From [Eubacterium] eligens ATCC 27750 (GTDB taxonomy: Bacteria > Bacillota > Clostridia > Lachnospirales > Lachnospiraceae): DNA of 64,000 nucleotides. Below are positions 12,561-62,855 of this stretch, one piece after another. The DNA lies in NCBI RefSeq assembly GCF_000146185.1, contig NC_012780.1, forward strand, positions 248,001 to 312,000, read 5' to 3'. A model generated the notes under the pieces. The model had not been told where the DNA came from. It worked only from the letters and a program-made list of their open reading frames with translations, and searched no databases. Numbering within the stretch: position 1 is the stretch's first letter; the number at the start of each line of letters is the position of its first letter. The position numbers and the translations under genes are program-made.

Positions 12561-12567
12561 ACTTTGC

Positions 12568-13677: not shown

Positions 13678-13715
13678 AGCCTAAATACATATTCCTTTCT
13701 GCTAAAATTTAATTA

Positions 13716-14804
13716 TTAATTTTTATTTAGCATACCATTCATAATAGCTTGTGCTAAATTATCATAATATTTTATAATATTTGTATTATTATACACACGC
13801 GGTTCTTCTATCATTTTCTTAAAATTAATCTCCGATATTTCATTTTTATCCTTTATAAGTTTAACAGTAGAAATATCTTTAATAAACTCATATACTCCAC
13901 TAACCTTTTTACTTGAATTATCAAGTGCTATACATGGAGTACCAGAGATAATACTCATAATCATACCATGTAATCTATCTGTAACTACAAATCCTGAGTG
14001 TGAAATAAGTTCTATCAATTTTAATAACTCTTTTTCTCTATTTTCTTTTGTTACTCGCAAATGCCTTATTACAGTGTCACTTTTATTAACTTTATATGTA
14101 CACTCTAATTTTTCCTCTATTTTTTCTATTTCAGCTGTTTTTTCTTTATCATTTCTCTCTATAACTAAGCATGATTTTTGATTATATTTTCGTCCCAGAT
14201 TATTTGTAAAATTTAAGAACAATACTATATCAGGAACTAATAACAACTTATTTTCTGGCAATAATTTCCTGTTTATAGCAAAATTATAAGAATTCATTTC
14301 TCTTAAACACATAATTAAATTTTTATTCTTCATTAATATTTTTTTAAATTTATCAATCTCTCTTTCTTCGCATTCCTTAAAAAAAATAGTTTGAGGAAAA
14401 ATAATCATTTGATTTTCGGAAAATGATTTTATTATGTTAACTATATGATTATGTTCATTTTTCCATAATGAACCAATCGAGCCTCCTCCAGTAATGATGA
14501 TAACATCCTCTTTGTTTATATATTTTTTTATTTTTCTTTTATTCCCCCTATATGAATTTTTACTTATCTCTATAACATCACAATCAAAATACTTCTTTAT
14601 AAATGCTTCTTCTGCATAAACAATTGCTTGATCTCCCATATTACCATGCTCTGGTACCCCCATTATTATAAATCTTTTATTTTTTTTAATACTTTTGAGT
14701 TTTTTTAATTCTTCATCAGAAAGGGAATGCCAATAATCAACAATCAAATGAAATGGAATTTTTATAGAATAAGGAATTAAATCTAACAAACTGTTAATAA
14801 ACAT
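13716..14804 (-). CDS. Polysaccharide pyruvyl transferase family protein (CsaB-like)
   Basis: Recognised by GVPEHGNMGDQAI near the N-terminus, VIITGGGSIGSLW in the middle, and FVVTDRLHGMIMSIISGTPC plus SKKVSGVYEF near the C-terminus, all hallmarks of the family. The enzyme adds a pyruvate ketal to a sugar using phosphoenolpyruvate, or acts as a related glycan transferase. The frame could start at 14810, but AAGGAG directly abuts that ATG; the ATG two codons later (14804) has proper spacing. About 362 residues. It is part of the capsule operon. Confidence 0.8.
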   Translation of the reverse strand: MFINSLLDLIPYSIKIPFHLIVDYWHSLSDEELKKLKSIKKNKRFIIMGVPEHGNMGDQAIVYAEEAFIKKYFDCDVIEISKNSYRGNKRKIKKYINKEDVIIITGGGSIGSLWKNEHNHIVNIIKSFSENQMIIFPQTIFFKECEEREIDKFKKILMKNKNLIMCLREMNSYNFAINRKLLPENKLLLVPDIVLFLNFTNNLGRKYNQKSCLVIERNDKEKTAEIEKIEEKLECTYKVNKSDTVIRHLRVTKENREKELLKLIELISHSGFVVTDRLHGMIMSIISGTPCIALDNSSKKVSGVYEFIKDISTVKLIKDKNEISEINFKKMIEEPRVYNNTNIIKYYDNLAQAIMNGMLNKN

Positions 14805-14817
14805 ATACATCTCCTTT

Positions 14818-15807
14818 TTAATTTAAAAAATTTTTAATTTTAGCAAGTAATTCATATAATTTAGCAAAATATCCACATACTAAAAACTGTATTTTTCTTG
14901 CAAAAGACAGTTTTTTATTTATTATAATTGCCTTTTTATATTTTTTTATCACATCCTGTATTGTCATTTGATATATTCTTAGTTCTTTACTATTCCCAAT
15001 TATTGCTTTATCTAAAAAACTTATATAATATCTTATATATCCTACCATAATATCATTTATATTGTTTGGAAATCTTCTTTTGCTATCATTCATAACAAAA
15101 CCTATGGCATCTAAAACCTCTGCTGATTTAGAATTAAATATTGCATTAGTAATTGAATCTTTTCTTTGCCTATAAACATATCCACTTTGCCAAATAAAAT
15201 ATACCTTTTCAGACTTTAAAAATACTTTATAAATTGTAATAATATCCTCAAAATGCTTACCTATAGGAAATTCTACATTTTGAAACAATTCTTTTTTGAA
15301 TATTTTATTAGGTGCATAGAATTGATAAAATTGAGGATACATCAAATTTACAATAGCTTCATTTTTGTTATAGATATCAATCCCATTTTTTCCTCTCTTT
15401 ATAATACGCTTATCTATTTCTAAGTCAAAATTACAGCACACAATTTGTGCATTCTTCTCCAATACAATTTTCATCATATCTGAATACATATTTTCATATA
15501 TCCAATCATCACTATCTACAAACCCTAAATATTGTCCCTGTGCTTGTGCTATTCCAAAATTTCTAGTTGCAGCAAGTCCTTCGTTTTCTCTATGAAAAAC
15601 TCTTATATTACTATATTTCTCTCCGAAATAATCACAAATTTCTCCACTATTATCTGTCGAACCATCATCTATCAAAAGTATTTCAATATTTAAATACTTT
15701 TGATTTATTATAGAATTACAACATTCCTCTAAATAATCTTGCACATTATACACTGGAACAATTATGCTCAAAAGAGGTAATTTTTCATTTTTTATATATA
15801 TTTCCAT
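14818..15807 (-). CDS. Family 2 glycosyltransferase
   Basis: The GT-A fold is plain: LLSIIVPVYNVQDYLEECCN, LLIDDGSTDNSGEICD, NEGLAATRNFGI and FVDSDDWIY (the DxD metal site). A further domain follows and ends in a basic amphipathic tail. It transfers a sugar onto the growing lipid-linked repeat unit at the cytoplasmic membrane face; donor and linkage cannot be read. The frame extends to 15852 into the polymerase gene, but GGAAGGAT before the ATG at 15807 supports the shorter start (329 residues). Confidence 0.85.
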   Translation of the reverse strand: MEIYIKNEKLPLLSIIVPVYNVQDYLEECCNSIINQKYLNIEILLIDDGSTDNSGEICDYFGEKYSNIRVFHRENEGLAATRNFGIAQAQGQYLGFVDSDDWIYENMYSDMMKIVLEKNAQIVCCNFDLEIDKRIIKRGKNGIDIYNKNEAIVNLMYPQFYQFYAPNKIFKKELFQNVEFPIGKHFEDIITIYKVFLKSEKVYFIWQSGYVYRQRKDSITNAIFNSKSAEVLDAIGFVMNDSKRRFPNNINDIMVGYIRYYISFLDKAIIGNSKELRIYQMTIQDVIKKYKKAIIINKKLSFARKIQFLVCGYFAKLYELLAKIKNFLN

Positions 15808-15833
15808 TATAATATCCTTCCATTTAAATCTAA

Positions 15834-16937
15834 TTACAATATGGCACTCCAAAAACTATAATTTTGAATTTGATCCATTCCTGTGAAATATGATCTTACA
15901 AAATCAGCTGTAAAAACAATTATAACAGCTGTATAAATTATAATTTTATATTTCTTTATTTTATTAGCAATCATAGGAACAAATATCATTGAATTAATAC
16001 TAAACAGCCAATATACTCTATTATGTTCTGGAATATACGGTGCATTAATAGCGATTATAAGGCTAAATAATTGCATCCATAAATTTAATGAATAAACCTT
16101 GTCATTTAATTTGAATATAAACTGTATAAGTAATCCTAATCCTAATATGACAAATGAAATTACAACAAAACTAATAGTAACTGAATGATAATATTTACGA
16201 GTTTTTAAATAATACAATAATTTTTCTGATTTCATAAATTTTGAAAAGAAATTCCAAAATATTGGAAAGAAAAATGTACATAAACTTAAAATTACAGTGG
16301 ACTTCTTTATATCACATTTTATATTATACAAAAAATATAACGGAATATATACTAATGCCATTATATGAAATGTAGAAGCAATCATTATAAAAATAATATA
16401 TGGAATAAATTTTTTTGAATATATAAATTTAAATGCAAGTAGAACTATTCCAATTGATATAAACTGTCTTATCCCATTAAACATATGAAAATAATTATAA
16501 CTTAAAAAGAAAATTAAAATACTCATGCCTATATCTTCAGAATTTTTTATTATATATACATAAAAAATCAGCCATGATATTGTTCCTGTAATAAATATTA
16601 TAGCAAAGAAATTATCAGTAATACCCGCTACTAAATTATTAAATAATAAATATCCCGCTTCTGCATTATCTGCATATATCTGATATGATCCATTCAGTGA
16701 ATGTTGAAATATCCTATAATATGTAATTCCTGTATCCGTTCCAACACTTATATTTCTAAATGCTATCAAAACCCACATCGGAATAAATATTAATACAAAA
16801 TATATTATTTTTTTATCATATGTAATTTTACCATTTATAAATGACAGCTTAAACTGCATTTGTTTTCTGTTAATTTTAAAAATATAGCAGAAAAATAAAG
16901 TAATAAATAACACTCCTAAATAATATATTAATGACAT
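15834..16937 (-). CDS. EpsG/Wzy-like polysaccharide polymerase
   Basis: The 367-residue polytopic membrane protein carries the EpsG-family features: FRNISVGTDTGITYYRIF (the GTDT loop), EAGYLLFNNLV, FNGIRQFISIGIVLLAF and ASTFHIMALVYIPLYF. It is the likely polymerase joining repeat units on the outer membrane face. It overlaps the start of the HAD-type gene upstream by 10 bases. Very AT-rich. Confidence 0.8.
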   Translation of the reverse strand: MSLIYYLGVLFITLFFCYIFKINRKQMQFKLSFINGKITYDKKIIYFVLIFIPMWVLIAFRNISVGTDTGITYYRIFQHSLNGSYQIYADNAEAGYLLFNNLVAGITDNFFAIIFITGTISWLIFYVYIIKNSEDIGMSILIFFLSYNYFHMFNGIRQFISIGIVLLAFKFIYSKKFIPYIIFIMIASTFHIMALVYIPLYFLYNIKCDIKKSTVILSLCTFFFPIFWNFFSKFMKSEKLLYYLKTRKYYHSVTISFVVISFVILGLGLLIQFIFKLNDKVYSLNLWMQLFSLIIAINAPYIPEHNRVYWLFSINSMIFVPMIANKIKKYKIIIYTAVIIVFTADFVRSYFTGMDQIQNYSFWSAIL

Positions 16938-18757
16938 TTCTTACCTCTTTTCTTTAACATCTTATATGTCTGTAAATATGGAAAATGCTTAATACCAATT
17001 GTTTTTTTTAAGAAACCTATTTTCCATCCAGAATTCACTAACCCATTTTTAAAATTTTTTATATTATTATCACAAATTAATTTTGAAACATATTCATCAT
17101 AATATGGCAAATTTCCTAATAATTTTAAACATTTCAAATCTGGATTTACTGCCAATTGAATAAATCTATCAATAGGAACATTAGATTCTAATAAATCAGG
17201 CGCAAATATATTATTTGAAAATATTTGTATATAATATAATGCGCCTTTCTGTATTTCCCTTATTTTTTTATAATCCTCTGTATCAAATTCCGATTTTTTT
17301 AGAACAGGAATAATTTTTTCATCTGATTCTTTGTCATAATTATACCCTACAGTTGTTCCATGATAAGGCATAAACATTGTTTCATATAATATTGTTCCTG
17401 CTTCAAGTTCATTATCCCTATCTGTTATAAATCCATATGATTCATCTTGATAAGAGCTTTCTCTTTTCCCAAAATAAATTCCTATTTTTTTTGATTGTGG
17501 AAATATATTATTTAAACTGTGCTGCATTGATCCTTTCCATCCAATATCAACTAATGCACTATTGTTATCAAAATAATCTAGTTTGTTTAAATAATCTTTT
17601 AACATATTTTTCCCTGTCTCGGAATTATTCCATAATATAGGCATAACATTTTCTATAACCGATGTGACATTTTTATTATTTATTAAACTTTCTTTCTCAA
17701 CTCCATACCGTTTTAAAACATCCTCATAAGCATTAATTTCTAAATTCCATTTGTCAAAAAACCTCTCAATTGTTTCATCCACTCGAGGTTCTGTCATCTC
17801 TAACAATTGTTTTACAGACATATCTGGTTTAACAGCAGCTACTCTTACTGGTTTTCTCGAAATATAAAGATATATATTTTTCCCTGATTTTCCCATAAAT
17901 GTTTCATAGCATTCTCTAATAAATAATCCCTCTCGCGCAAGAAAAAATAATTTATCAATATTTTTCTTTACTTTAATATCTTGTAACCAATTACAAAACT
18001 GAAACATGACTGGACCTAAATATATATATCCTAATTTATAATATTCATTATTTTGATATGGGAAATAATTATAACCTATTCTATCATATATGTTTTGTTT
18101 GGGAGTTAAATTGCTTATTTTATTACATTTATAATGTATCGCCCTTATTCCTGATTTAATAGCCATTAAAAAATCGCTTTTTATATTATCCCCAATATGA
18201 ATAATATCTTTATTTTTTACACCTAACTCATTTTGAACAATTTTATATAACTTTCCCGTAGATTTTCTTGCTCTATACTCAGAGGAAATAAATATATTAT
18301 TAATATTTTTATAACCACATTGTATTAAAATACTCATGATATTTTCAGTTGATAAATACATATCGCTAATAACTATAATTTTTTTATTTTCATTTATGCA
18401 ATAGTTATATATTTCTTTTATTTCCTTATTTGGAACTATATTATCTAATTCAATTTTTAATTCCATTTCTTTTAATTGTTGCTTTACATTTAAATATTGA
18501 TCATTTATACACGCATAAATTTCATTCAGATTTATTTCTTGATACTTACTTATTTCATATGCTAATTTCTGTGCCATTATTCTGTCTTTAACAAAATCAC
18601 ATTTAGGTGAAATCCATCCATTCTCTTTAGCAACTTTTTCTACTAAAGAAAAAATCATTTCTGGTTTATTTACATTTCTATACACAAGCGTATCAAATAC
18701 ATCAAATGAAACATATTTATATTTTTTTATAATATTCAACTTATTTTTTATATTCAT
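16928..18757 (-). CDS. HAD-superfamily protein fused to a glycan-cluster domain (COG5610-like)
   Basis: Residues ~14-215 form a HAD-like phosphatase domain: SFDVFDTLVYRN with the nucleophile aspartate, VISDMYLS, KSTGKLYKIV and HIGDNIKSDF. The remaining ~390 residues contain LFFLAREGLFIRECYE and the LVDIGWKGSMQHSL stretch found in predicted hydrolases of capsule and rhamnan clusters. The function of the second part is unknown. Long for a HAD protein (609 residues) and lysine/asparagine-rich, matching the AT-rich capsule core. Likely acts on a sugar phosphate or a nucleotide-sugar precursor, by inference. Confidence 0.7.
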   Translation of the reverse strand: MNIKNKLNIIKKYKYVSFDVFDTLVYRNVNKPEMIFSLVEKVAKENGWISPKCDFVKDRIMAQKLAYEISKYQEINLNEIYACINDQYLNVKQQLKEMELKIELDNIVPNKEIKEIYNYCINENKKIIVISDMYLSTENIMSILIQCGYKNINNIFISSEYRARKSTGKLYKIVQNELGVKNKDIIHIGDNIKSDFLMAIKSGIRAIHYKCNKISNLTPKQNIYDRIGYNYFPYQNNEYYKLGYIYLGPVMFQFCNWLQDIKVKKNIDKLFFLAREGLFIRECYETFMGKSGKNIYLYISRKPVRVAAVKPDMSVKQLLEMTEPRVDETIERFFDKWNLEINAYEDVLKRYGVEKESLINNKNVTSVIENVMPILWNNSETGKNMLKDYLNKLDYFDNNSALVDIGWKGSMQHSLNNIFPQSKKIGIYFGKRESSYQDESYGFITDRDNELEAGTILYETMFMPYHGTTVGYNYDKESDEKIIPVLKKSEFDTEDYKKIREIQKGALYYIQIFSNNIFAPDLLESNVPIDRFIQLAVNPDLKCLKLLGNLPYYDEYVSKLICDNNIKNFKNGLVNSGWKIGFLKKTIGIKHFPYLQTYKMLKKRGKKCH

Positions 18758-18797
18758 TTTTATCCCTTAAGATATATATCTTATTTTTGATATAATA

Positions 18798-19643
18798 TCA
18801 TTTAAATTTCTTTAATTTCATCCCCAAAAATCTTGCAGTCATGTTGGGAATATATTCCACTGCTACTTTCCAATTTTTATCTTCTATAATTCTTTTCAAT
18901 ATATATTTAGCCATACCAGCACCAGCATTATTAGTACCATATGTATTCATATATGGCTCGGCTCTATAGAACTCTCCTGTATCCTGATATCTTTTGTATA
19001 AAGACTTGAAATTAAAATCATGCGAATGAAATACTTGTGATTCAGCACAATACTTAATCCTGTAATCATTCATAATTAACTTATGTGCTATATATTGATC
19101 CTCATTTGATGCAAATCTCTTTCCGTCATAATAATTTAGTTTTTCAAATACATCTCTTTTTATCGCTGATGAAGCATCTGAAAAGAAAAAAGTATTAAGT
19201 CCTAATTTTTCTATATCATCTTTTGTTTTAACAAAAGAGACATTTCCATAATTCTTTTCTCTAGTGTATTTTTCAATATTATTTTTTTCTGCAAGCTGCC
19301 GAGAATATGCTGCATCACATTCTCCTAATTCAATATCTTTTGTAAGATAATAAAGCCAATCATCTCTTACAATCTTTATATCCTGAGATATAAAGACGAT
19401 TATATCAGCTTTACATGTCTTTGCCATCATCTCCCTTGTGGCAGAATGCGAAAAATCTTTAGGTTCAATCTCTACATACTGAGCATTAATCCTTTTTAAA
19501 ATTGCTTCACTATTATCTTTTGACCTTGTAAGAACAAATTTTATTTCATGTAAATCAATATTATTTTGTTTCTGAATTGATTGATATAAAGGTTCAATAT
19601 ACTTTTCCGCATTAAATAATGGACAAATAATATCTATATTCAC
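18798..19643 (-). CDS. Family 2 glycosyltransferase (rhamnosyltransferase-like)
   Basis: The 281-residue protein opens with IDIICPLFNAEKYIEPLYQS and has KDFSHSATREMMAK, the F-x-H-x-x-x-R motif of rhamnosyltransferase-type GT2 enzymes, and IIVFISQDIKIVRDDWL. The start is GTG behind GGAAGGTG. It lies directly downstream of the priming sugar transferase, so it may add the second sugar. Confidence 0.8.
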   Translation of the reverse strand: MNIDIICPLFNAEKYIEPLYQSIQKQNNIDLHEIKFVLTRSKDNSEAILKRINAQYVEIEPKDFSHSATREMMAKTCKADIIVFISQDIKIVRDDWLYYLTKDIELGECDAAYSRQLAEKNNIEKYTREKNYGNVSFVKTKDDIEKLGLNTFFFSDASSAIKRDVFEKLNYYDGKRFASNEDQYIAHKLIMNDYRIKYCAESQVFHSHDFNFKSLYKRYQDTGEFYRAEPYMNTYGTNNAGAGMAKYILKRIIEDKNWKVAVEYIPNMTARFLGMKLKKFK

Positions 19644-25474: not shown

Positions 25475-26167
25475 CTATATAATACCTGCTACAGATGCAA
25501 AATATTTTTCAAAATCACCACGAATAAGTGCATATCCTGCCTCATTCGGATGCATCCCATCCTTACTATAATATGCCTTCATGTCATCAAGTGCAAGAAA
25601 GCTTTCACGAAGACTTAATATTTCACAGCCATTTTCCTTGGCGACAGCTCTCATTATGTCGCCATATTCTGCATACTCGTACTGCATCTGCTGAACTGAG
25701 TTCACATATTCTGACATAACTTCCCTGCTGATTCCGCTTTCAAGCAGATGTGAAAGATACACTTCAATAGCAATCGGAGGTGCAATTACTGCTGTTACTG
25801 CTGCTCCCTTTTCCTGCAACAAATATATCATATCCTCATAATTCTTCTTAAAATCCTGTGGGGCAACTCTGTGCCTGTGTTCATAGTCACATTTGCCCTC
25901 ACATATCGACTTCCAGTCATAGTCGCAGTCGTTACCGCCACATTCAAGAAATGCCACATCAGGTACCGGATAACTTGACATTACCTGTGTAAGCCACATT
26001 TTTACTCTCTCTGATGTGAATGTCGGCATTGCAAAATTTAAAAACTTCATATTATATTGTGCCTGCATTTTCTCAAAACCGATTGCATCTGAGCTGTGAT
26101 AATTCCACACTTCATCCGGCATAACCCCGCGCATAAGCGAGTCGCCAAACATGTAATATGTTTTCAT
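25475..26167 (-). CDS. SGNH/GDSL-type hydrolase
   Basis: The 230-residue protein begins MKTYYMFGDSLMRG (the GDS block with the catalytic Ser), has GGNDCDYDW (block III Asn) and ends with DGMHPNEAGY (catalytic Asp and His). The family hydrolyses esters of lipids or sugars. No signal peptide, so it is probably cytoplasmic. Spaced 10 bases from the flavodoxin-fold gene upstream. Confidence 0.85.
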   Translation of the reverse strand: MKTYYMFGDSLMRGVMPDEVWNYHSSDAIGFEKMQAQYNMKFLNFAMPTFTSERVKMWLTQVMSSYPVPDVAFLECGGNDCDYDWKSICEGKCDYEHRHRVAPQDFKKNYEDMIYLLQEKGAAVTAVIAPPIAIEVYLSHLLESGISREVMSEYVNSVQQMQYEYAEYGDIMRAVAKENGCEILSLRESFLALDDMKAYYSKDGMHPNEAGYALIRGDFEKYFASVAGII

Positions 26168-42180: not shown

Positions 42181-42196
42181 TGTTTCACATGAAACA
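42181..42196. promoter_or_regulatory. parS-like site
   Basis: TGTTTCACATGAAACA differs from the Firmicutes/chromosomal parS consensus TGTTTCACGTGAAACA at one central base and keeps both 7-base arms. It lies ~365 bases upstream of parA. Confidence 0.7.
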
Positions 42197-42249
42197 TGAT
42201 AAACATATGTTCTAATTTCCATTTTGATTATTCTATTTATTGTTAAAAC

Positions 42250-42266
42250 TTTGAACTCAGTTCAAA
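42250..42266. promoter_or_regulatory. Palindromic operator, copy 1
   Basis: TTTGAACTCAGTTCAAA is a perfect 8+1+8 palindrome. Its core TGAACTSAGTTCA recurs at 42374-42386 and 48610-48622, with a degenerate copy at 42470-42482. Confidence 0.65.
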
Positions 42267-42373
42267 AATCTTTCTGTTTTTCACTCATAAACTATCTTAT
42301 TTGTACATATTATTATAATATTCCAATTTGTATTTCAAATTATATTCAAAGTGCAATACATCATTCCATTTTT

Positions 42374-42386
42374 TGAACTGAGTTCA
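42374..42386. promoter_or_regulatory. Palindromic operator, copy 2
   Basis: TGAACTGAGTTCA, perfect 6+1+6 palindrome, same core as copy 1. Confidence 0.65.
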
Positions 42387-42469
42387 CTTTTTTCTGTTAA
42401 ATCTAATTAAATATAAAACTATAAAGTAAAATTATGAAGTATGAACCATGAAGTATGAAGTATGAACTG

Positions 42470-42482
42470 TGAACTGAGTGCA
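42470..42482. promoter_or_regulatory. Palindromic operator, copy 3 (one mismatch)
   Basis: TGAACTGAGTGCA lies 19 bases upstream of the parA -35 box, the expected place for promoter control. Confidence 0.5.
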
Positions 42483-42501
42483 AAGTTTTTCGAAAAATCA
42501 A

Positions 42502-42529
42502 TTGAAAAGTATTTTAAATGATGTATAAT
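42502..42529 (+). promoter_or_regulatory. parA promoter
   Basis: TTGAAA and TATAAT separated by 16 bases, 32 bases before the ATG. Confidence 0.6.
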
Positions 42530-42561
42530 TAACATATACTAATATTAAGAAAGGAAATACA

Positions 42562-43389
42562 ATGGCAGAAGTAATTAGTTTAATTAATGAAAAAGGTGGA
42601 GTAGGAAAGTCTACCTCTGCAATAACTATTGCACAGATTTTAGCTATTTCAGAATACAACGTATTATTGATTGATCTTGATCCACAGATGAACACAACTA
42701 AAATGTTTGGACAGGCAGAAGCTAATCCTGATATTAATTATGAACATCTGTTTTGCGTAAAGCAAAATAATAAAGATGCCGTTATGAATTTTATAACAGA
42801 TACAGACTACGATAATATATCTATTCTTGCTGCATCAAGGGAGCTTAACAGTCTTATATATAAGATATACGATAAAATGAAAGAAACTAATGTTGAACTT
42901 TATCTACGATATAATCTTAATCTTATTAAAGACGAATTTGATTATATTATAATAGACAATTCACCTTTTAAGTCTTATCTTACATCATGTGCAATGTGCG
43001 CAAGTGATAAAATTATTACACCTATCTGTGTAGATAATTTCTCTTATGATGGACTTATGTCTCTATTAGATACAATTGAAGAACTTAATGACAAATATGC
43101 ACTAAGCATTGAATTTGCAGGTATATTTATGACTCGTGTAGCAGGAAGAACTACACTTTTCCGTCAGATGTATGAAAGTTATGAAAATATGTTCGGTGAC
43201 AGATTTCTTCCAATTTCTATAAGGAACTGCATAGCTGTCAATGAATCAAACACTACATTTGAACCTTTGTTAACATATGACAAGAAGTGTCCGGCATCGC
43301 TTGATTATGTTGAACTTGTCAATTATCTTGGATTAATGGACACACCTCATTACCGTAAGCTTGCAAAATATCTGAAAGGAGAGAAGTAG
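42562..43389 (+). CDS. parA: ParA-family partition ATPase
   Basis: The deviant Walker A KGGVGKST lies at residues 11-18, with LLIDLDPQMNTT (A' motif) and DYIIIDNSPF (Walker B) following. 275 residues with no N-terminal HTH, so it is a small ParA/Soj-type protein rather than a P1-type one. It drives replicon segregation by ATP-dependent nucleoid binding together with the ParB encoded next. The upstream operators suggest autoregulation or a shared regulator. Confidence 0.9.
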   Translation: MAEVISLINEKGGVGKSTSAITIAQILAISEYNVLLIDLDPQMNTTKMFGQAEANPDINYEHLFCVKQNNKDAVMNFITDTDYDNISILAASRELNSLIYKIYDKMKETNVELYLRYNLNLIKDEFDYIIIDNSPFKSYLTSCAMCASDKIITPICVDNFSYDGLMSLLDTIEELNDKYALSIEFAGIFMTRVAGRTTLFRQMYESYENMFGDRFLPISIRNCIAVNESNTTFEPLLTYDKKCPASLDYVELVNYLGLMDTPHYRKLAKYLKGEK

Positions 43390-43391
43390 TA

Positions 43392-44588
43392 ATGGCAAAG
43401 AAATCATTTAGTGCCGGAACAACTAAATCCGGTGTACTCAATAACGATGGTGGTGAAAAGCTCCGTGAAATACAGGCTAAAGCCCAGTATAATTTTAAAT
43501 ACATTCCAAAAGAAAAGATTATTCCAAATCCTAAGAATGAGCAGTATTCACAGGATGGAATAGAAGCACTCAAAGAAAGTATTCTTGTAAATGGTCTGCG
43601 TCACAATCTGTCTGTTTTATATGATGCTGAAACAGACCTATACAGACTTATTTCTGGTGAAAGAAGATATCATGCCATATGCCAGATGACTGATAAAGAA
43701 TACCGGGATAACTTTCCTGCAGGAATACCTTGTAAAGTAGAGAAATCTGATGTAAATGCTATTGATGAAGAAATTATGCTTATTTCCGCCAATCATGATG
43801 TCAGAGAATCAAGTATGGAAGTAAAAAGATGGGAAGTAAGCCGTTTATTAGAACTCTATGAAGCCAAGAAATTAAAAGGTGAAATTAAAAATATACACGC
43901 TGAAATTGCTAACCAGCTTAATATCTCTGAAAGACAGGCAAGAAAATATACAACAGCCGAGAAGCTTATACCAGAACTTTCTGAATTACTTAATTCTAAT
44001 GGCATTGATCTTAATCAGGCAGATAAATTCGGCAAACTTGATGAAGATGCACAGAAAACAATTCTTTCTATTATTCAGAAGAATGGAACTATTGAAAATG
44101 CGGAATTCCAGTCTATAAAAAAATTATCAGAAGAACGTGCCGATGAAGCAAGAGAGTATAAGAAGCAGCTCGATTCAGCAACGAAAGAAATCGAAGATAA
44201 GGAACAGACAATCCGGTTATTAGAACAGAAAATCAGTTCTATACAGCAAAATGATAAGCCATCTAATACTGAACAGGACAAAGATGACATGGTTAAATTC
44301 GCAATGCTGGCAAAAGAAAAAGCCGAAAAGGAAAAGGCTAAGATGGAAGCCCAGGTAGAAAAGCTTAAGCAGCAGCAAAAGGAAAAAGAACAGCGACAGA
44401 CATCTATCTCTGATTCTGAATTAAAAAGAATAAATTCAATTGCCAAGCTTGAACAGTCTTTAACCTTATTAGAAAATAATTTTGACATTCTTAAAAATAA
44501 TAAATCAGTTATAAAAAATGATGCTGAGCTTAAAATAAGAGTTGAAATTTTAAAAGACAGACTGGTTGACCTTATAGATAACCTTTAA
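43392..44588 (+). CDS. parB: ParB-family partition protein
   Basis: The N-terminal ParB/Srx domain has KYIPKEKIIPNPKN and LISGERRYHAI (the CTP-binding GERR box). The HTH region follows (HAEIANQLNISERQARKYTT). The C-terminal ~170 residues are a long charged coiled coil rather than the usual short dimer domain. 398 residues. Starts 3 bases after parA with its own GGAGAG site. Binds the centromere and loads on DNA; candidate sites are the parS-like sequence and the TGAACTSAGTTCA palindromes. Confidence 0.88.
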   Translation: MAKKSFSAGTTKSGVLNNDGGEKLREIQAKAQYNFKYIPKEKIIPNPKNEQYSQDGIEALKESILVNGLRHNLSVLYDAETDLYRLISGERRYHAICQMTDKEYRDNFPAGIPCKVEKSDVNAIDEEIMLISANHDVRESSMEVKRWEVSRLLELYEAKKLKGEIKNIHAEIANQLNISERQARKYTTAEKLIPELSELLNSNGIDLNQADKFGKLDEDAQKTILSIIQKNGTIENAEFQSIKKLSEERADEAREYKKQLDSATKEIEDKEQTIRLLEQKISSIQQNDKPSNTEQDKDDMVKFAMLAKEKAEKEKAKMEAQVEKLKQQQKEKEQRQTSISDSELKRINSIAKLEQSLTLLENNFDILKNNKSVIKNDAELKIRVEILKDRLVDLIDNL

Positions 44589-45196
44589 TTTCCTCATATA
44601 TGAATTTTTGACATATATATACATATTTCATCAAATACATAATAAAAATGCGTATATGGTCATTTTACAAAACCATAATTTTGACGGGTAGTATTCAATT
44701 TTAGTTAAATTTGAATATTTACCTGTCATTTTTTATTTAATAATAATTTATAATAGTTCTTTTTAAATCTATATATACATATATATTATTATCATTTAAA
44801 CATATATTGTTAATTAGCAGTTATGTTAAACCGCATTATTACTAACTTTATTGAATTTTCATGTGTTATTTTTTTTCATTTATGATGACTTATTAAGGTC
44901 AATAAGAATTCTTTTTTTTCAAAAAATGTATTTAATTTTTTTATATATTTTTTTTCTTTCAAAAAAGGTATTTTGTTTAATAATTATGTGTTTTTTTATA
45001 CTTTTTCTGTCGAAAACTTTCAAATAACATTTATTATAGTAGTCGCATAAATACACTTTTACACTATTTTATGTAACAATTTGATAGTAATAAGATGTAT
45101 CTTCAACATTTTAAAGATGAGAATTTCTTAAATTATAATATTTGACTAAAATTTATGGGATAAATGAAAAAAAAGACACGAAAAAAAGACTGTTTT
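44589..45196. other. AT-rich gap of 608 bases after parB
   Basis: Contains the parAB terminator at 44683-44727 and several T-rich runs with CAAAAAA-GTATTT-like units (~44930-44975). Extreme AT content could help strand opening, but no iteron-like array is visible here. No gene seen. Confidence 0.5.
44683..44727 (+). terminator. Terminator of the parAB operon
   Basis: An imperfect ~20-bp inverted repeat (GACGGGTAGTATTCAATTT against AAATTTGAATATTTACCTGTC) is followed by ATTTTTTATTT. Confidence 0.65.
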
Positions 45197-46378
45197 TTAT
45201 GCAGCCTTTTTTGATTTATTAAATTCTGATCTTATAATTGTAGAAACCAGACCTCCAAGATTATTAACTGTCTTCTGATACATATAGTATTCTCTATATA
45301 CAACAGATAAGGCATTAACTACAATGTCATAAGAATAGTGAACTGACAGACTTGCCAGATCATCAATCTCAATTTCTGTAAGTAGCATTGGTTTAAATGG
45401 AGCTGCAGATTTCTTATTTTTTATAGAGAAGAAATCGTTCAGATAATCAGGACAAATACCGCCAGAATTAACATAAGCCACATTCTGGTTGAACTCCCAT
45501 ATAAATTTTTCTAATGTTCTGGCATATTCATCATGAACACGAAGTTTTTCATTCTTAGGAATAAACTCTGTATCTATCTGGAATCTGACAACATCATCTT
45601 TAAAGGAAACAATAAAAATATCTGATTCCTGACCAAGCTTTTCCTTTATTACCGATGGCTTACAGTAAGCAGGAAGAAGATTTCTGATTTCTTTAATTTT
45701 CTTATAATCAACACTAGCTTGTCCTTTTAATTCAGGAGCATCAAGACTTAACAGTTCACGGATAAATATTCTCAATGAAACCAAAGATTTGATATTGCAC
45801 AGTCTTTTATACAGTTCTTTGGATACAACAAGAAAACCTCGCCCACCCTTATTGGCAGGAAGGTAGTAGTTTTCGTAATCATTAAGAAGTATATTAATCA
45901 GTCCATATTCATTTTTAGAATATGAAATATATGTATATTCCTGAAGAGTCTTTAAGTTATTCCATATTGTGCGGACATTGCATCCAACATTAACTGCAAG
46001 TTCGCCGGCATCAAGATTTCTGATAATACCATTAGAATCAGGATGATAAAAATGCAGTAACATAAATAATTTTATCGCATTTGCTTTAAGCATAGGTCTA
46101 TAGCCATAACGATTCTTTTCATTATGGTAAACTTTTTTATACACATTCTTATGGGCTAATGCTTTATGCGGACAATGCTCACAGGTACTGCATGCATCAG
46201 AATATGCCCGGCTGTCTTTGCCAAATGTTTCAATGACAGCTTTATATTTACAGTTAATGCAGGCTGCATTATTATAGTCAATGGTTTCTACAGTGGATTC
46301 AATTACTTCTGTGTAATTTTTCTGGATACCAAGAGACTGGATTATAACTGATTTACCTATATTTGCAAAATTATCCAA
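45197..46378 (-). CDS. Winged-helix replication-type protein with a cysteine cluster
   Basis: Residues ~35-75 carry paired cysteines (CINCKYK, then CSTCEHCPHKA) likely to bind zinc. Residues ~95-165 form a winged-helix domain (LDAGELAVNVGCNVRTIWNNL, YISYSK). The C-terminal ~60 residues (EIDDLASLSVHYSYDIVVNALSVVYREY) resemble the DnaD/DnaB_2-type C-domain. About 393 residues. The gene reads away from the iterons, which lie just upstream of its start, as expected of a plasmid initiator or loader. The frame opens with GTG at 46387 inside AGGGGGTGA; TTG at 46378 has better spacing. The specific role is inference. Confidence 0.6.
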   Translation of the reverse strand: MDNFANIGKSVIIQSLGIQKNYTEVIESTVETIDYNNAACINCKYKAVIETFGKDSRAYSDACSTCEHCPHKALAHKNVYKKVYHNEKNRYGYRPMLKANAIKLFMLLHFYHPDSNGIIRNLDAGELAVNVGCNVRTIWNNLKTLQEYTYISYSKNEYGLINILLNDYENYYLPANKGGRGFLVVSKELYKRLCNIKSLVSLRIFIRELLSLDAPELKGQASVDYKKIKEIRNLLPAYCKPSVIKEKLGQESDIFIVSFKDDVVRFQIDTEFIPKNEKLRVHDEYARTLEKFIWEFNQNVAYVNSGGICPDYLNDFFSIKNKKSAAPFKPMLLTEIEIDDLASLSVHYSYDIVVNALSVVYREYYMYQKTVNNLGGLVSTIIRSEFNKSKKAA

Positions 46379-46440
46379 GCATTTCACCCCCTTTTAGACC
46401 ATAATTTAACAGTATTTTGGCAGGAAATCAAATTCTCTGT

Positions 46441-46894
46441 TTTACTCCGTTTTTATCCACATTACTGATATTTTTCTCTATTTTTACTCCGTTTTTATCT
46501 ACAATTTTTAAAAACTGTGGTATTTTACTCTAAATATGTCTACGAAATTTCTTTGATTTTTTTTATGTAGACCACAAATTGCATATTTTGTGTGATTTAC
46601 TCCAAAAATATCTACATTTAGGTTATGATGTGTTCATATAAAAGGTGCTAAACTAAGGAAATCTAGTATTTAAGCCAAAAATGTAGACATCGAACAGTTT
46701 TTTTGAATAAAAAAATGTAGAAAAACAATACTAAAGGAATATATTGCATTCAAATAAGCATACTTATGAGATATATTTTTATGAAAAAAAGCAAAATTTA
46801 CTCCAAAAATATCTACATTTAATAAATTTACTCCAATTTTATCTACATTATATTAACTTCTTATTATAAATTTACTCCAAAAATATCTACATTT
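46441..46894. repeat. Iteron array with DnaA box: probable replication origin (oriV)
   Basis: Seven same-orientation copies of a 23-24 base unit (TTTACTCC, four or five A/T, TATCTACATT) begin at 46441, 46483, 46524 (variant), 46596, 46797, 46827 and 46871. The first contains the perfect DnaA box TTATCCACA (46453-46461). Spacing is irregular and the DNA between is highly AT-rich. The neighbours parAB and two Rep-like genes support a plasmid-type origin. The whole gap 46388-47141 holds no gene. Confidence 0.85.
46562..46722. promoter_or_regulatory. Inverted half-iterons
   Basis: The iteron 3' half appears reversed (ATGTAGA) at 46565-46571, 46681-46687 and 46715-46721, with another at 47103-47109. 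In iteron plasmids, inverted half-sites often serve as Rep autoregulatory operators or handcuffing sites. Here they are interleaved with the direct iterons. Confidence 0.5.
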
Positions 46895-47041
46895 TTTCTT
46901 CAAGAATTAATCAAAATTTCAAATAAATCTTTAATAAAATTAAAAATGGCTTAAATAGGGCAGTAGTGAGCATTTTTTATATTAAATTATAAAAATAAAC
47001 GACAAAACTCTATAAAATCCCATATTTAAGCCAAATAAAAA

Positions 47042-47071
47042 AAGGATAATTGAAATTAATCAATTATCCTT
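47042..47071 (-). terminator. Terminator of the Rep-like gene
   Basis: AAGGATAATTGA and TCAATTATCCTT are perfect 12-bp arms; the minus strand continues with seven T. It separates the Rep-like gene at 47142 from the iterons. Confidence 0.8.
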
Positions 47072-47141
47072 CATTATTCGACATCAGATTGTCAAATTAA
47101 AAAATGTAGACTTACATTCAATATTAAATCGTTTATTAATA

Positions 47142-48548
47142 TCAAATATCAAAACTATCAATCAGCAATCCTTTATCATTCTTATCATTATCAGAATTAA
47201 GATCTTCAATCTCAGCATCAGACAACGGCAGAAAAGTTATAATAAACACGCCATTCTTTAATTCAAACTTTTCAATAGCAATATGATTATCGACAAACTC
47301 CTGAAGACTTTCCTGGATAAGCTGCAGATTTTTCTTTTTATTCTTGAGCTTGAATCTTACAATCTTCTGGAAGTATGTATAACTATATTCGTTAACTCTT
47401 GTTTCCTGATTAGCTATCTGTTCACGCTTTATCGCATAGCATATAATCTTTGAAAGGTTATTATCAAGAACATCATAAGAAGCAGAAGTAATAGAGATAA
47501 GCTTCTTCTGAATAATTGCGTTGCTTAGAATCTCTCCAAATTGTGCTATGGCATATGGCCGTTCCGCATCCTCTTTAATAACAATATTATCAAACAAGTT
47601 GAAATATATCTTACTGCCTTCAGCTTCATAAGAGAAGTTATACTCTACCAGTTTACGGCATGAATTACTAATCTTATTAAGAACATTCTTGCCTACATGA
47701 TAATCAACAACCTCTTTACCCAGAGTATTAAGATCGACAACAACAGATTTCTCTTTAGAGAACTCCTGCATATTAATATTAGAGATAAATGCATTGACAA
47801 GTTTAAGGTCATCTGTATCCATAGACTTAGGTGGCGTCAGCTTACCATTATCCACAGTGACCTCTAACAGTTCATCTCCATCATCATCAGTAATAATTTC
47901 CTTTAACAAATTATTGGAAGCTGTTTCCATCATCAGAGTAAAAGAAGATGGGCTGAATAATGGTTTATCAACAAGGTCAACCGGATACATTCTTAGATAA
48001 GAATCAATGTTTCCGGCCAGCTCACTTTCTATATACTTCCATGCACTGATAATTAAATCATTCTTAAGAGAATTATATATTGAATTATTAGTGAAAGAGT
48101 AGAGTCCTGGAAAATCAATCAGAAGACTTCCGGAATCATTCTTCCATTTATTAGCTGCAACCTTCTTATCTTTGATAATATCATCAAGCTCTTTATCTCC
48201 ATAAAGCTTGGCATATTCGTCAGGTCTTAATGATCTGGCCAGAGAAATAAAACTGGCAAGAGGATGCTTGGGATCATCAAGATTCATATTATCAATGTCA
48301 TTATTGTATGCCTTATACCATCTGGCGCGTTTCTGAAGACGCGACTTTTTTATCTTGTTAATAATAGGCATTAAATCTTCACGACTCGTTTTACCTTCAA
48401 GATACTCCATCAATGTTTCATCTATAAGCTCTGCTACATTATCAGCTGGAAAATTCATGAGATTTCTTTTTTTATTATAGAATTCTAGAATAGCAGGGTT
48501 GATATGCTTGGCAAGCTCTTCTATAAATCGCCTAGAATACTGTTCCAT
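47142..48548 (-). CDS. Candidate plasmid replication initiator (Rep_3-like tandem winged helix)
   Basis: 468 residues, no membrane helix. The C-terminal ~220 residues have the length and secondary-structure order of two winged-helix domains (VLDNNLSKIICYAIKREQI, then YSYTYFQKIVRFKLKNKKK and a terminal strand pair), recalling RepE/RepA-type initiators. The N-terminal half is not recognised. Support also comes from position beside the iterons and parAB. A good promoter (TTGCTT-17-TATAAT) with the shared TGAACTSAGTTCA operator directly upstream drives it. Ribosome site AAGGAG. Confidence 0.55.
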   Translation of the reverse strand: MEQYSRRFIEELAKHINPAILEFYNKKRNLMNFPADNVAELIDETLMEYLEGKTSREDLMPIINKIKKSRLQKRARWYKAYNNDIDNMNLDDPKHPLASFISLARSLRPDEYAKLYGDKELDDIIKDKKVAANKWKNDSGSLLIDFPGLYSFTNNSIYNSLKNDLIISAWKYIESELAGNIDSYLRMYPVDLVDKPLFSPSSFTLMMETASNNLLKEIITDDDGDELLEVTVDNGKLTPPKSMDTDDLKLVNAFISNINMQEFSKEKSVVVDLNTLGKEVVDYHVGKNVLNKISNSCRKLVEYNFSYEAEGSKIYFNLFDNIVIKEDAERPYAIAQFGEILSNAIIQKKLISITSASYDVLDNNLSKIICYAIKREQIANQETRVNEYSYTYFQKIVRFKLKNKKKNLQLIQESLQEFVDNHIAIEKFELKNGVFIITFLPLSDAEIEDLNSDNDKNDKGLLIDSFDI

Positions 48549-48577
48549 ATTAACTCCTTCAATTTAAATATAAATAT

Positions 48578-48606
48578 ATTATACGGACTTTCGACATAAA
48601 AAGCAA
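48578..48606 (-). promoter_or_regulatory. Promoter of the Rep-like gene
   Basis: On the minus strand TTGCTT (48601-48606) and TATAAT (48578-48583) are separated by 17 bases, ~30 bases from the ATG. Confidence 0.6.
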
Positions 48607-48609
48607 ATG

Positions 48610-48622
48610 TGAACTGAGTTCA
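48610..48622. promoter_or_regulatory. Palindromic operator, copy 4, at the rep promoter
   Basis: TGAACTGAGTTCA lies three bases upstream of the -35 box of the Rep-like gene. It is identical to copy 2 near parA, linking replication and partition control. Confidence 0.65.
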
Positions 48623-48667
48623 ATCAGGAAGCTTTTCTTAATTATTTTGGGTTTTGTTTATTTTATT

Positions 48668-48696
48668 TTGATTTTATTGTGGAGGAATGGTATAAT
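48668..48696 (+). promoter_or_regulatory. Promoter of the recombinase-fold gene
   Basis: TTGATT and TATAAT with a 17-base spacer, 77 bases before the ATG. Confidence 0.65.
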
Positions 48697-48773
48697 TTTG
48701 TTTGTGGTTAAGACATATGTCGTCATATTTAACTAAACTATACTACACCACTGCTTTAGAGAAAGGATAACAT

Positions 48774-49709
48774 ATGATATCAGCTAAATTTGAAGATGAG
48801 ATATGGATATATTTCCAGACGAATTTGCGTCCAAGAACACGGAAAGAATATTGGAATGTTATAAAAAGTTTTGATAAAATAATCGGACACGACCCACTTA
48901 AATTAACAAGAAAAGAGGCAATGAATTATTACAACAACCTTATAGAGAAAGTTAACTCTGGCAGATTGTCATATAATACTGCAGTTATGCGTCTTTCAGT
49001 TATGAAATCTGTATGCACATTTATAGAAACTTATACTATTAATCATGGCAAACGATATGTTAATCATTTTGAAAGTATGTCTCTTCCAGAACAGGATAAA
49101 ATATTGCCAAAAGATGCAATACCTAATACTAAAGAAATTGATAATCTTCTGAGTGCGGCATTAGATGCCAATGACAATAAAGCATTTTTAATATTTTCAC
49201 TAGTAATTAAGATGGGACTTACCAATCAGGAAATATGCAATCTAAACAAGGAGTATATATGCCGAAATCAGACAGGGAATCTGTGTATTAATATGCCACC
49301 AAAGAATCATATAAGCAGATTTCTTATTATACCTGATGACCTTGGTACAATTCTTGATAAATATATTATGGCAGAGAATATACAGAGCGGCGCATTATTT
49401 ACAAACATACGAAAAAACCGTATTAAAATGCGCGATACAGAACGTCTTCTTGCTTCATACACAGATAAACTTGTGAAAGCCAAAAAATTGCGGAAGCATT
49501 ATACAATGCAGACACTCCGTCATGCAGCTATAAGCTATATGTTAATGGGAGGAGCATCTAAAGATGAAGTTGCTTCATACACTGGAGTAACAGGAAAATG
49601 GATGAACAGATATGATAAAATAATAGCTGACAATGTAATAAATGTAGCTGCTAATTATAATGTAATTAATATCAATCCTTCTAAAATTGACAAAAATGTA
49701 TCTGAATAA
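48774..49709 (+). CDS. Tyrosine-recombinase-fold protein with altered catalytic residues
   Basis: 311 residues with the N-terminal SAM-like DNA-binding domain (LRPRTRKEYWNVIKSF) and a catalytic-domain fold. The usual GLRxxE is GLTNQE (Arg to Thr). The H-x-L-R-H box is QTLRH (first His to Gln). The LGH box is YTGVTGKW (His lost). The Arg of LRH and the final Tyr (NRYDK) remain. It may be inactive as a recombinase and serve as a DNA-binding or replicon-resolution accessory factor. The nearby origin suggests a role in replicon maintenance. Confidence 0.75.
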   Translation: MISAKFEDEIWIYFQTNLRPRTRKEYWNVIKSFDKIIGHDPLKLTRKEAMNYYNNLIEKVNSGRLSYNTAVMRLSVMKSVCTFIETYTINHGKRYVNHFESMSLPEQDKILPKDAIPNTKEIDNLLSAALDANDNKAFLIFSLVIKMGLTNQEICNLNKEYICRNQTGNLCINMPPKNHISRFLIIPDDLGTILDKYIMAENIQSGALFTNIRKNRIKMRDTERLLASYTDKLVKAKKLRKHYTMQTLRHAAISYMLMGGASKDEVASYTGVTGKWMNRYDKIIADNVINVAANYNVININPSKIDKNVSE

Positions 49710-61196: not shown

Positions 61197-62855
61197 ATGA
61201 ACGAGCAGGATTGTAAGAAATTAGCAGAACTCTTATTCCCTGATGTGGATAAGACACCTGATTATTATGAGGAGAAATACCCATATAGAAAACTTCCTAA
61301 TAAGGCAGAAGTAACAAGATTAGGTCCAAGCCCTACAGGCTTTATCCATCTTGGCAATCTCTACAGTGCTTTAGCTGATGAGAGAATCGCACACAAGAAT
61401 GGTGGTGTATTCTACTTAAGAATTGAAGATACTGATGCCAAGAGAACTGTTGAAGGTGCTGTTGACCTTGTAATCAATTCTTTAAGATATTTTGATATTG
61501 AATTTGATGAAGGAGCAGGCTTCCCGGATTCTGACCCGGTTAATGCATACGGACCATATTATCAGACACAGAGAGTTGATATCTATCATACATTTGCAAA
61601 GGAACTTGTACTTAAAGGTCTTGCTTACCCTTGCTTCTGTACAGAGGAAGAGCTTGAGGCTGTAAGATTACAGCAGGAGACTGATAAGGTTCTTACTGGA
61701 TATTATGGCAAATATGCTGTATGCCGTGACCTTTCTTTAGAGACTATCGAGGAAAATCTTAAGGCAGGAAAGCCTTATGTATTAAGACTTCGTTCACAGG
61801 GAAGTCCTGAGAATGAAATCACATTTACAGACAGCATTAAGGGAGAGATTAAGCTTCCAGAGAATATCCATGATGTAGTTCTTCTTAAGAAAGATGGTAT
61901 TCCAACATATCATTTTGCACACGCAATTGATGACCACTTTATGAGAACTACTACAGTTGTACGTGGCGGTGAATGGCTTGCATCTGTTCCAATCCACTAT
62001 GAATTATTCCATGTATTAGGCTTTAAGATGCCAAAATATGCACATACAGCACACCTTATGAAGTTTGATGAGGAGACTGGCGGAAAGAGAAAGTTATCTA
62101 AGAGAAAAGATCCGGAGCTTTCACTTGATTACTACAGAAAAGACGGATATCATCCATACACAATGAAGGTCTATCTTCTTACACTCCTTAACTCTAACTT
62201 TGAGGAATGGCATGAGAAGTTCCCTGACAAGGATATCAATGAATTCCCATTCTCAGTAGATAAGATGAGTGTTTCAGGTGCCTTATTTGATAAAGAAAAG
62301 CTTCATAACATCTGTAAGAATGAGCTTTCCAAGTTATCAGAGGATGATTTATATGAATTCCTTCACAACTGGGCATTAGAGAATGAACCTGAGATGGAAA
62401 AGGTATGGTTTGCTGACAAAGAGAAGTTACTTGCTATATTAAGACTTTACATGGGTGTTGGTGCTAAGAGAAGAAGAAAAGACTTCATGTATGCTAAGCA
62501 GATATTTGAACTTATCAGCTTCTTCTTTGATGGCGAGTCTGGTGAAAGAGATGAATTCAGATTAGTTGATGACGAGGTTAAGGCTATTCTTAATGATTAC
62601 CTTGCAGCTTATGACCATAATGATGATAACAGCATGTGGTTTAACAAGCTTAAGGAAATAGCTGACAAGAACGGCTATGCTTCTGATATGAAGGCTTACA
62701 AGGCTAATCCGGAGAACTTCAAGGGTAATGTATCAGACGTTGCAGAGGTTGTAAGAATTGCTGTAACCGGCAGAGCTAATACACCTGATTTATGGACTAT
62801 CGTTCATATCATGGGCGAAGAGCAGATGAAAGAGCGTATAAGCCGTTTCCTTTAA
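61197..62855 (+). CDS. gltX: Glutamyl-tRNA synthetase
   Basis: 552 residues. TRLGPSPTGFIHLGN carries the HIGH-type motif (HLGN) and KRKLSKRKDPE the KMSKS-type motif. An N-terminal extension of ~40 residues precedes the catalytic domain, as in several clostridial enzymes. Charges tRNA-Glu (perhaps also tRNA-Gln where Gat amidotransferase is used). Only 74 bases lie upstream, with no T-box visible. It is an essential gene, notable on a plasmid-type replicon. Confidence 0.93.
   Translation: MNEQDCKKLAELLFPDVDKTPDYYEEKYPYRKLPNKAEVTRLGPSPTGFIHLGNLYSALADERIAHKNGGVFYLRIEDTDAKRTVEGAVDLVINSLRYFDIEFDEGAGFPDSDPVNAYGPYYQTQRVDIYHTFAKELVLKGLAYPCFCTEEELEAVRLQQETDKVLTGYYGKYAVCRDLSLETIEENLKAGKPYVLRLRSQGSPENEITFTDSIKGEIKLPENIHDVVLLKKDGIPTYHFAHAIDDHFMRTTTVVRGGEWLASVPIHYELFHVLGFKMPKYAHTAHLMKFDEETGGKRKLSKRKDPELSLDYYRKDGYHPYTMKVYLLTLLNSNFEEWHEKFPDKDINEFPFSVDKMSVSGALFDKEKLHNICKNELSKLSEDDLYEFLHNWALENEPEMEKVWFADKEKLLAILRLYMGVGAKRRRKDFMYAKQIFELISFFFDGESGERDEFRLVDDEVKAILNDYLAAYDHNDDNSMWFNKLKEIADKNGYASDMKAYKANPENFKGNVSDVAEVVRIAVTGRANTPDLWTIVHIMGEEQMKERISRFL

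Follow-up and report, generated by a model that had tools for sequence, protein, structure and literature searches.

A replication and partition module of a chromid in the genus Lachnospira, with a chromosomal-type parS site

Chromids, iteron initiators, private ParABS partition systems and unidirectionally replicating chromids are all known kinds of element. In the chromids of Pseudoalteromonas, unidirectional replication has been shown by sequencing, and 77 unidirectional large replicons, Firmicutes among them, have been predicted (PMC7858055). Contacts between origins have been revealed by Hi-C in many species; only for Agrobacterium are ParB proteins given as their cause (PMC13342612). Here, we describe a module with replication and partition genes at positions 42181 to 49709 of a 64,000-nucleotide stretch (the window) of the [Eubacterium] eligens ATCC 27750 genome, which consists of three contigs (2,831,389 bases in total). 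The window spans C2:248001-312000, C2 being contig NC_012780.1, and unprefixed positions are those of the window. We conclude that C2 is rightly read as a chromid, a second chromosome of plasmid descent, and that the module probably serves this Lachnospira replicon as its origin and centromere.

C2 measures 626,744 bp and is a contig apart from the one with dnaA/oriC (C1; 2,144,190 bases). On C1, dnaA, dnaN, recF and gyrB are found at one end, and soj/spo0J are close to the opposite end (C1 gene names are our reading of the proteins, backed for Spo0J by a match to structure 6SDK and for Soj by similarity to ParA). A plasmid record from Lachnospira eligens strain FDAARGOS_1570, circular and 628,583 bp long, contains the module at 100% identity. 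The separate contig, the separate circular record and the dnaA region on C1 together make C2 a second replicon and not an integrated one. A sequence-only reading of the window had offered two possibilities, to be decided by whether the contig is circular and separate from dnaA/oriC. The first, a second replicon that captured core genes, is borne out by these data, the circular record coming from another submission. The second was a megaplasmid that had integrated and might have its origin in competition with oriC. Core genes close to a plasmid-type origin would suit it, but two assemblies contradict it, and the dnaA region and soj-spo0J sit on C1; we regard integration as ruled out for practical purposes.

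The captured core genes include gltX and rplT. The only genome match over the family cutoff for gltX is on C2. A second gltX, which the sequence-only reading had suggested looking for, was not found: a C1 match scores 85.8 bits, far below the cutoff of 289.95, and is presumably a glutaminyl relative. The single genome match for rplT is at C2:458713. The matching plasmid record is annotated with infC-rpmI-rplT, thrS and suf genes (annotation read over positions 1 to 300,000, 462,344 to 493,872 and 493,000 to 532,000 of 628,583). In guanine-plus-cytosine (G+C) content, C2 (36.78%) resembles the chromosome, for which 400 kb of C1 gave 36.94%; a lower value (33.55%) was obtained for 22 kb at the C1 origin. 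C2 thus combines plasmid-type replication and partition genes, chromosome-like base composition and single-copy core genes, all of them marks of a chromid. Because the only gltX over the cutoff and the only rplT are on C2, the replicon should be indispensable on sequence grounds; what is recorded as a "plasmid" carries genes that the cell should be unable to do without. The features of the window are as follows.

25692-25704, no strand: TGAACTGAGTTCA palindrome lying apart, at a distance of 16.6 kb from the array
42181-42196 (C2:290181), plus strand: Spo0J-type parS, TGTTTCACATGAAACA, the sole copy on C2
42252-42482, no strand: array of three TGAACTSAGTTCA palindromes (starts 42252, 42374 and 42470 [one mismatch]), proposed private centromere/operator
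42562-43389, plus strand: parA, Walker-type partition ATPase (AAA_31, E = 4.7e-39)
43392-44588, plus strand: parB, plasmid type, adjoining parA (PHROG ParB-like, E = 1.7e-26)
45197-46387, minus strand: Rep1, initiator-like, RepE/Pi/RctB-like double winged-helix fold in a predicted model
46441-46894, plus strand: seven iterons, proposed origin (starts 46441, 46483, 46524, 46596, 46797, 46827 and 46871)
46453-46461, plus strand: TTATCCACA, possible DnaA box within iteron 1
47142-48548, minus strand: Rep2, second initiator-like protein, conserved in the genus, first winged helix RepA/RepE-like in a predicted model
48610-48622, no strand: TGAACTGAGTTCA palindrome, flanked by rep2 and the recombinase-like gene
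48774-49709, plus strand: tyrosine-recombinase-fold protein with replaced catalytic positions (first R to T, H to Q, H/W to V)
61197-62855, plus strand: gltX, the sole genome copy over the family cutoff

With seven iterons between two proteins of RepE/RctB-like fold, plus ParA and ParB, the module looks like an origin. The iterons follow the pattern TTTACTCY-N7-TCYAC, and their TTTACTC/GAGTAAA boxes number seven, whereas 200 shuffled versions of the letters averaged 0.17. In predicted models, Rep1 resembles RepE, Pi and RctB, and Rep2 resembles RepA and RepE. Rep1 has an invariant cysteine cluster, and Rep2 has an additional N-terminal helical domain. Neither protein had a Pfam or NCBIfam match at an E value of 1e-3, and comparison by sequence with solved structures returned nothing at E ≤ 1. 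Two points speak against the assignment: Foldseek by itself matched neither Rep1 nor Rep2 at E ≤ 0.001, and the Rep2 model is of middling quality (predicted local distance difference test score of 75). Having the modeled double winged-helix fold and no Pfam match, both proteins would work like Rep_3-type iteron initiators, and we do not file them as members of that family.

The sequence-only reading had listed a parS-like site, parA, parB, two Rep-like proteins, seven iterons with a DnaA box and a recombinase-fold protein, and each of these was found where it had been placed. The DnaA box needs qualification. Its letters are present, inside iteron 1 and one base away from an iteron half, and since TTATCCACA is found in only 3 of 14 homologous intergenic regions, being absent in most relatives, we rejected the box as a conserved part of the origin. 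Outside the window, an isolated single iteron (TTTACTCCAAAAATGTCTACAT) lies at C2:467366-467387, approximately 172 kb from the origin array; it may be an initiator-binding control site.

Part of the module is visible in all 13 good-quality genomes of the genus. Of 22 Lachnospira genomes, 14 have Rep1, and of the 13 of good quality 11 do (ATCC 27750 included); ParB orthologues are present in 12 of 22. All copies seen share one gene order, some of them being shortened by contig ends. The two good-quality genomes in which Rep1 was not found are G013 and G007. G013 was rejected as a module-less genome since Rep2 (97% identical) and the recombinase-like gene lie right at the start of its contig, and in G007 the contig opens at the flank of parS. 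G019 has Rep1, Rep2 and the recombinase at a contig end (G019:C4). In this genome, which is 99% complete, no orthologous ParB was found, just a 29% match elsewhere, and this counts against the overall reading given below. Among the 13 relatives with Rep1, gltX is on the same contig as Rep in 3 (G016, G018 and G019) and on another draft contig in the rest. Across a sample of 299 Lachnospiraceae genomes, 297 of them from other genera, Rep2 was detected in ATCC 27750 and G004 and, weakly, in two genomes of other genera (E values of 1e-9 and 6e-4). In a large protein search that scored the best 7,996 candidates, at least 86 Rep2 relatives had an E value of ≤1e-3, including a set at 42 to 49% identity, and Rep2 may not be confined to the genus. 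The retention of Rep1, Rep2 and gene order across the genus argues that the replicon is an old possession of Lachnospira.

The partition genes may be of the plasmid type I ParABS kind, with a clear ParA and clear palindromes; the ParB_N match of ParB is weak (E = 1.7e-4; 22 bits, below the Pfam cutoff of 26.3). Upstream of parA, 3 to 11 copies of the TGAACTSAGTTCA palindrome (≤1 mismatch) are found in 12 of 12 genomes. In ATCC 27750, all six genome places with the array palindrome (≤1 mismatch) are on C2 and none is on the other contigs. Among them is a copy with one mismatch at C2:472572.

The second kind of partition site in the module had been recognized as parS-like by the sequence-only reading, which did not notice that it is of the chromosomal (Spo0J) type. 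TGTTTCACATGAAACA occurs at four places in the genome, three beside soj/spo0J on C1 and one at 42181 on C2, and its reversed control pattern occurs nowhere in the genome. The C2 site is identical to the three sites beside soj and has the chromosomal 16-bp parS form (TGTTNCACGTGAAACA or a species variant). The chromosomal ParB is Spo0J-like (6SDK match, E = 6.6e-57), and in all 10 relatives examined the chromosomal sites have the genes for Soj and Spo0J as neighbors. In 10 of 12 genomes, ATCC 27750 included, the 1.8 kb preceding parA contain exactly one parS (≤1 mismatch), at 381 to 1,276 bases from the gene. This count covers genomes with DNA upstream of parA and leaves out G007 and G011, which were noticed only through their parS match. 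Of 2,400 Markov-resampled upstream regions, a single one had one parS-like site. In all 10 carriers, parS is farther from parA than the palindrome array and marks its outer edge; G012 and G001 each have one stray palindrome well beyond parS.

The simplest reading is that Spo0J would read the single parS and the C2-borne ParB the array. Alternatively, the chromid's own ParB might read parS, with the TGAACTSAGTTCA palindromes being only operators or the sites of another regulator, and there would be no cross-talk with the chromosome. The position of the site within the chromid par region, where parB adjoins parA, agrees with this. However, the C2-borne ParB is only 25% identical to the chromosomal Spo0J, is without its GHARA motif and has a different helix-turn-helix region (a comparison by eye, as the helix-turn-helix parts align poorly). 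Furthermore, the palindrome is present in all 12 par regions and parS in just 10, and the palindromes are exclusive to C2 in ATCC 27750. The center of the C2-type site (CATG or CGTG) also occurs among the chromosomal sites of the same genome in 10 of 10 cases, which is weak evidence because at least 5 of these genomes have both centers on the chromosome. Recognition of parS by the private ParB is therefore unlikely in our judgment.

The site could also be a functionless relic, left behind when the chromosomal origin was once involved in recombination. In favor of this, in 2 of the 12 genomes (G005 and G020) no parS was found at ≤2 mismatches in the 20 kb around parA; G020 has one parS match genome-wide. 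Against a relic stands the distribution of the carriers, which belong to all four main clades of the ParA-plus-ParB tree while the DNA around parS has largely diverged: 9 of 66 pairs have no match, and 57 of 66 have local matches of 19 to 736 bases at 65 to 100% identity. Within this diverged DNA, parS has stayed within its consensus and held its position at the array edge, so we consider a relic very unlikely. Nevertheless, G005 and G020 weigh against a general role of Spo0J at the chromid, as does the published rule that there is no cross-reaction between the partition systems of replicons sharing a cell (PMC4409726 and PMC13245405). A review assigns the 16-bp parS to single and primary chromosomes (PMC7022226). 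Given this placement and the strict separation published for other replicons, we count a chromid with both site types as a real variant.

The direction of replication, on which the sequence-only reading was silent, is suggested by GC skew and a dif-like site. GC skew is negative around C2 except at approximately 290 to 340 kb, and the minus strand carries 81.8% of the coding bases (530 mechanical open reading frames). The skew is thus one-sided, as in a unidirectionally replicated chromid, save for some 45 to 50 kb right of the origin, where its sign is opposite. The left arm is visible in seven contigs (ATCC 27750 and six relatives), and its skew is negative in every one of them. A 28-bp dif-like site with identical 11-bp arms and a differing 6-bp center is present at C1:1024257 and C2:340494. 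The former adjoins the C1 skew maximum at 1,023,154 (of the 400 kb read), and the latter is 0.5 kb from the detrended C2 skew maximum at 340,994, so that both have the arms, center and skew switch by which dif is defined. The dif-like site is also present in the FDAARGOS_1570 plasmid record. It emerged from a comparison of C1:990-1070 kb against the whole of C2, in which 28-mers with at least 24 of 28 identical bases and palindromic arms were sought. Being picked by likeness and not by its place on C2, it can be tested independently in the relatives, of which G001 does not fit.

Measured rightward from Rep1, the best skew change point is at +45.7 kb in ATCC 27750, +4.9 kb in G005, +7.4 kb in G019, +9.0 kb in G018 and +76.4 kb in G002. 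The dif arms are at +47.3 kb in ATCC 27750 (0 mismatches), +9.1 kb in G018 (0), +7.5 kb in G019 (2) and +75.9 kb in G002 (2), and G005 has a weak, inverted dif-like site at +4.6 kb (4 mismatches). By the change-point measure, the two agree at differing distances, which argues that the terminus moves and the skew boundary moves with it. G016, G012 and G017 have no good dif-like site, and their contigs stop before the right-hand switch. G005, which lacks parS near parA, also has the shortest right arm (+4.9 kb).

Under a different explanation, C2 would replicate in both directions, its forks converging at the point opposite the origin, and the bias of skew and strand would come from rearrangement or transcription. 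Skew is an indirect measure, and right of the origin there is the segment of opposite sign. On the other hand, the left arm is consistently negative, and the change point coincides with dif in ATCC 27750, G018, G019, G002 and, weakly, G005 at distances that differ between genomes; we find a bidirectional C2 quite unlikely. Near-unidirectional replication does have several observations to contend with. The plain cumulative skew maximum is at +35.9 kb in ATCC 27750, +3.6 kb in G005, +7.2 kb in G019, +8.8 kb in G018 and +47.8 kb in G002, which is near dif in G018, G019 and G005 but well short of it in ATCC 27750 and G002, and the latter has a negative skew bin at +50 kb. In G001, the change point (+47.9 kb) is close to the contig end, and there is no good dif, the best site with a 6-base spacer having 5 mismatches at +39.3 kb. 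No match to the Firmicutes dif consensus was found, and the dif scan covered 422 kb of the 2.14-Mb chromosome. On balance, the sequence data indicate that C2 is likely a near-unidirectionally replicated chromid that uses the Spo0J/SMC and Xer/dif systems of the chromosome besides its own ParABS.

The recombinase-fold gene at the end of the module is kept in most module copies seen and was not found in the stretch of G020. Active tyrosine recombinases have the catalytic set R-H-R-H/W-Y. At the positions that we take to be catalytic, assigned by motif, T replaces the first R in 12 of 13 copies, and in all 13 H is Q and H/W is V or I; only the second R and the Y are retained throughout (13 of 13). 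The protein, which lacks the full active set, may act as a partner that binds DNA and not as a resolvase. Elsewhere in the window, G+C content is approximately 24 to 26% at 11001-19000, compared with approximately 30 to 33% on both flanks, and this stretch, possibly that of the capsule operon named by the sequence-only reading, may be acquired DNA.

Starting from sequences, copy counts, conservation and skew, we propose a mechanism whose binding and movement steps are conjectural. Rep1, perhaps with Rep2, would bind and open the iteron origin and start replication. One fork would travel leftwards past parAB for almost the full circle (approximately 580 kb), and the other arm, approximately 47 kb long, would stop at the chromosome-type dif. 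The chromid ParB would read the TGAACTSAGTTCA array, and this private ParABS would move the origin. Meanwhile, Spo0J would load at the single chromosomal-type parS just outside the array and slide outwards, so that the chromid origin would also receive Spo0J and, most likely, SMC recruited by it. This loading could tie the folding, origin position or timing of the chromid to the main chromosome. Finally, the host Xer recombinase would resolve chromid dimers at dif. We put the probability of this reading of the module, as a chromid origin and centromere with an iteron start, near-one-armed replication, private ParABS plus Spo0J/SMC at a single parS, and Xer/dif, at roughly 0.7. The odds are slightly better than even for the more specific proposition that there are two classes of centromere (a private array and a captured parS), that Spo0J-SMC handles the chromid and that dif/Xer closes a near-unidirectional round at a terminus drifting among species. 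If true, a two-centromere chromid would provide a simple molecular basis for the origin-origin coupling of large secondary replicons. How secondary chromosomes keep step with the main one is a question that a single 16-bp parS makes directly testable.

Among the titles and abstract openings of the literature matches listed, nothing concerned the replication of this replicon or a chromosomal-type parS on a chromid. The replicon may already be among the 77 unidirectional replicons predicted in PMC7858055. The Pseudoalteromonas chromids described there are alike in having a RepA-type origin, dif2 at 4 to 27 kb from ori2 and a terminus that moves off the origin. They belong to another phylum, and the chromosomal-type parS on a chromid is reported here in addition. 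Lachnospira offers a natural series of dif-to-origin distances (approximately 7 to 76 kb), as if a one-armed replicon were growing a second arm. Within the same family, Lachnospiraceae, the chromids of Butyrivibrio are much smaller, at approximately 92 and 186 kb (PMC5716241).

Compared with chromosome 2 of Vibrio cholerae, which relies on RctB and on ParB2/parS2, the Lachnospira chromid has two initiator-like proteins, a one-sided skew and a chromosomal-type parS. Its Rep proteins share the double winged-helix fold and the iterons beside the gene with RepE of the F plasmid, Pi of R6K and RepA of pPS10; they differ in the lack of a Pfam match at 1e-3, in the cysteine cluster of Rep1 and in the N-terminal helical domain of Rep2. 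Chromosomal and large-plasmid ParABS systems co-exist in Thermus thermophilus and with SCP1 in Streptomyces, as they do here, but the centromeres in those systems are strictly replicon specific, whereas the Lachnospira chromid carries both types (PMC4409726 and PMC13245405). In Agrobacterium, the origins of chromosome and secondary replicons are likewise coupled via partition proteins, with centromeres clustered by ParB/RepB. There, different ParB-like proteins interact (PMC13342612), whereas in Lachnospira the secondary replicon would carry the chromosome's own site.

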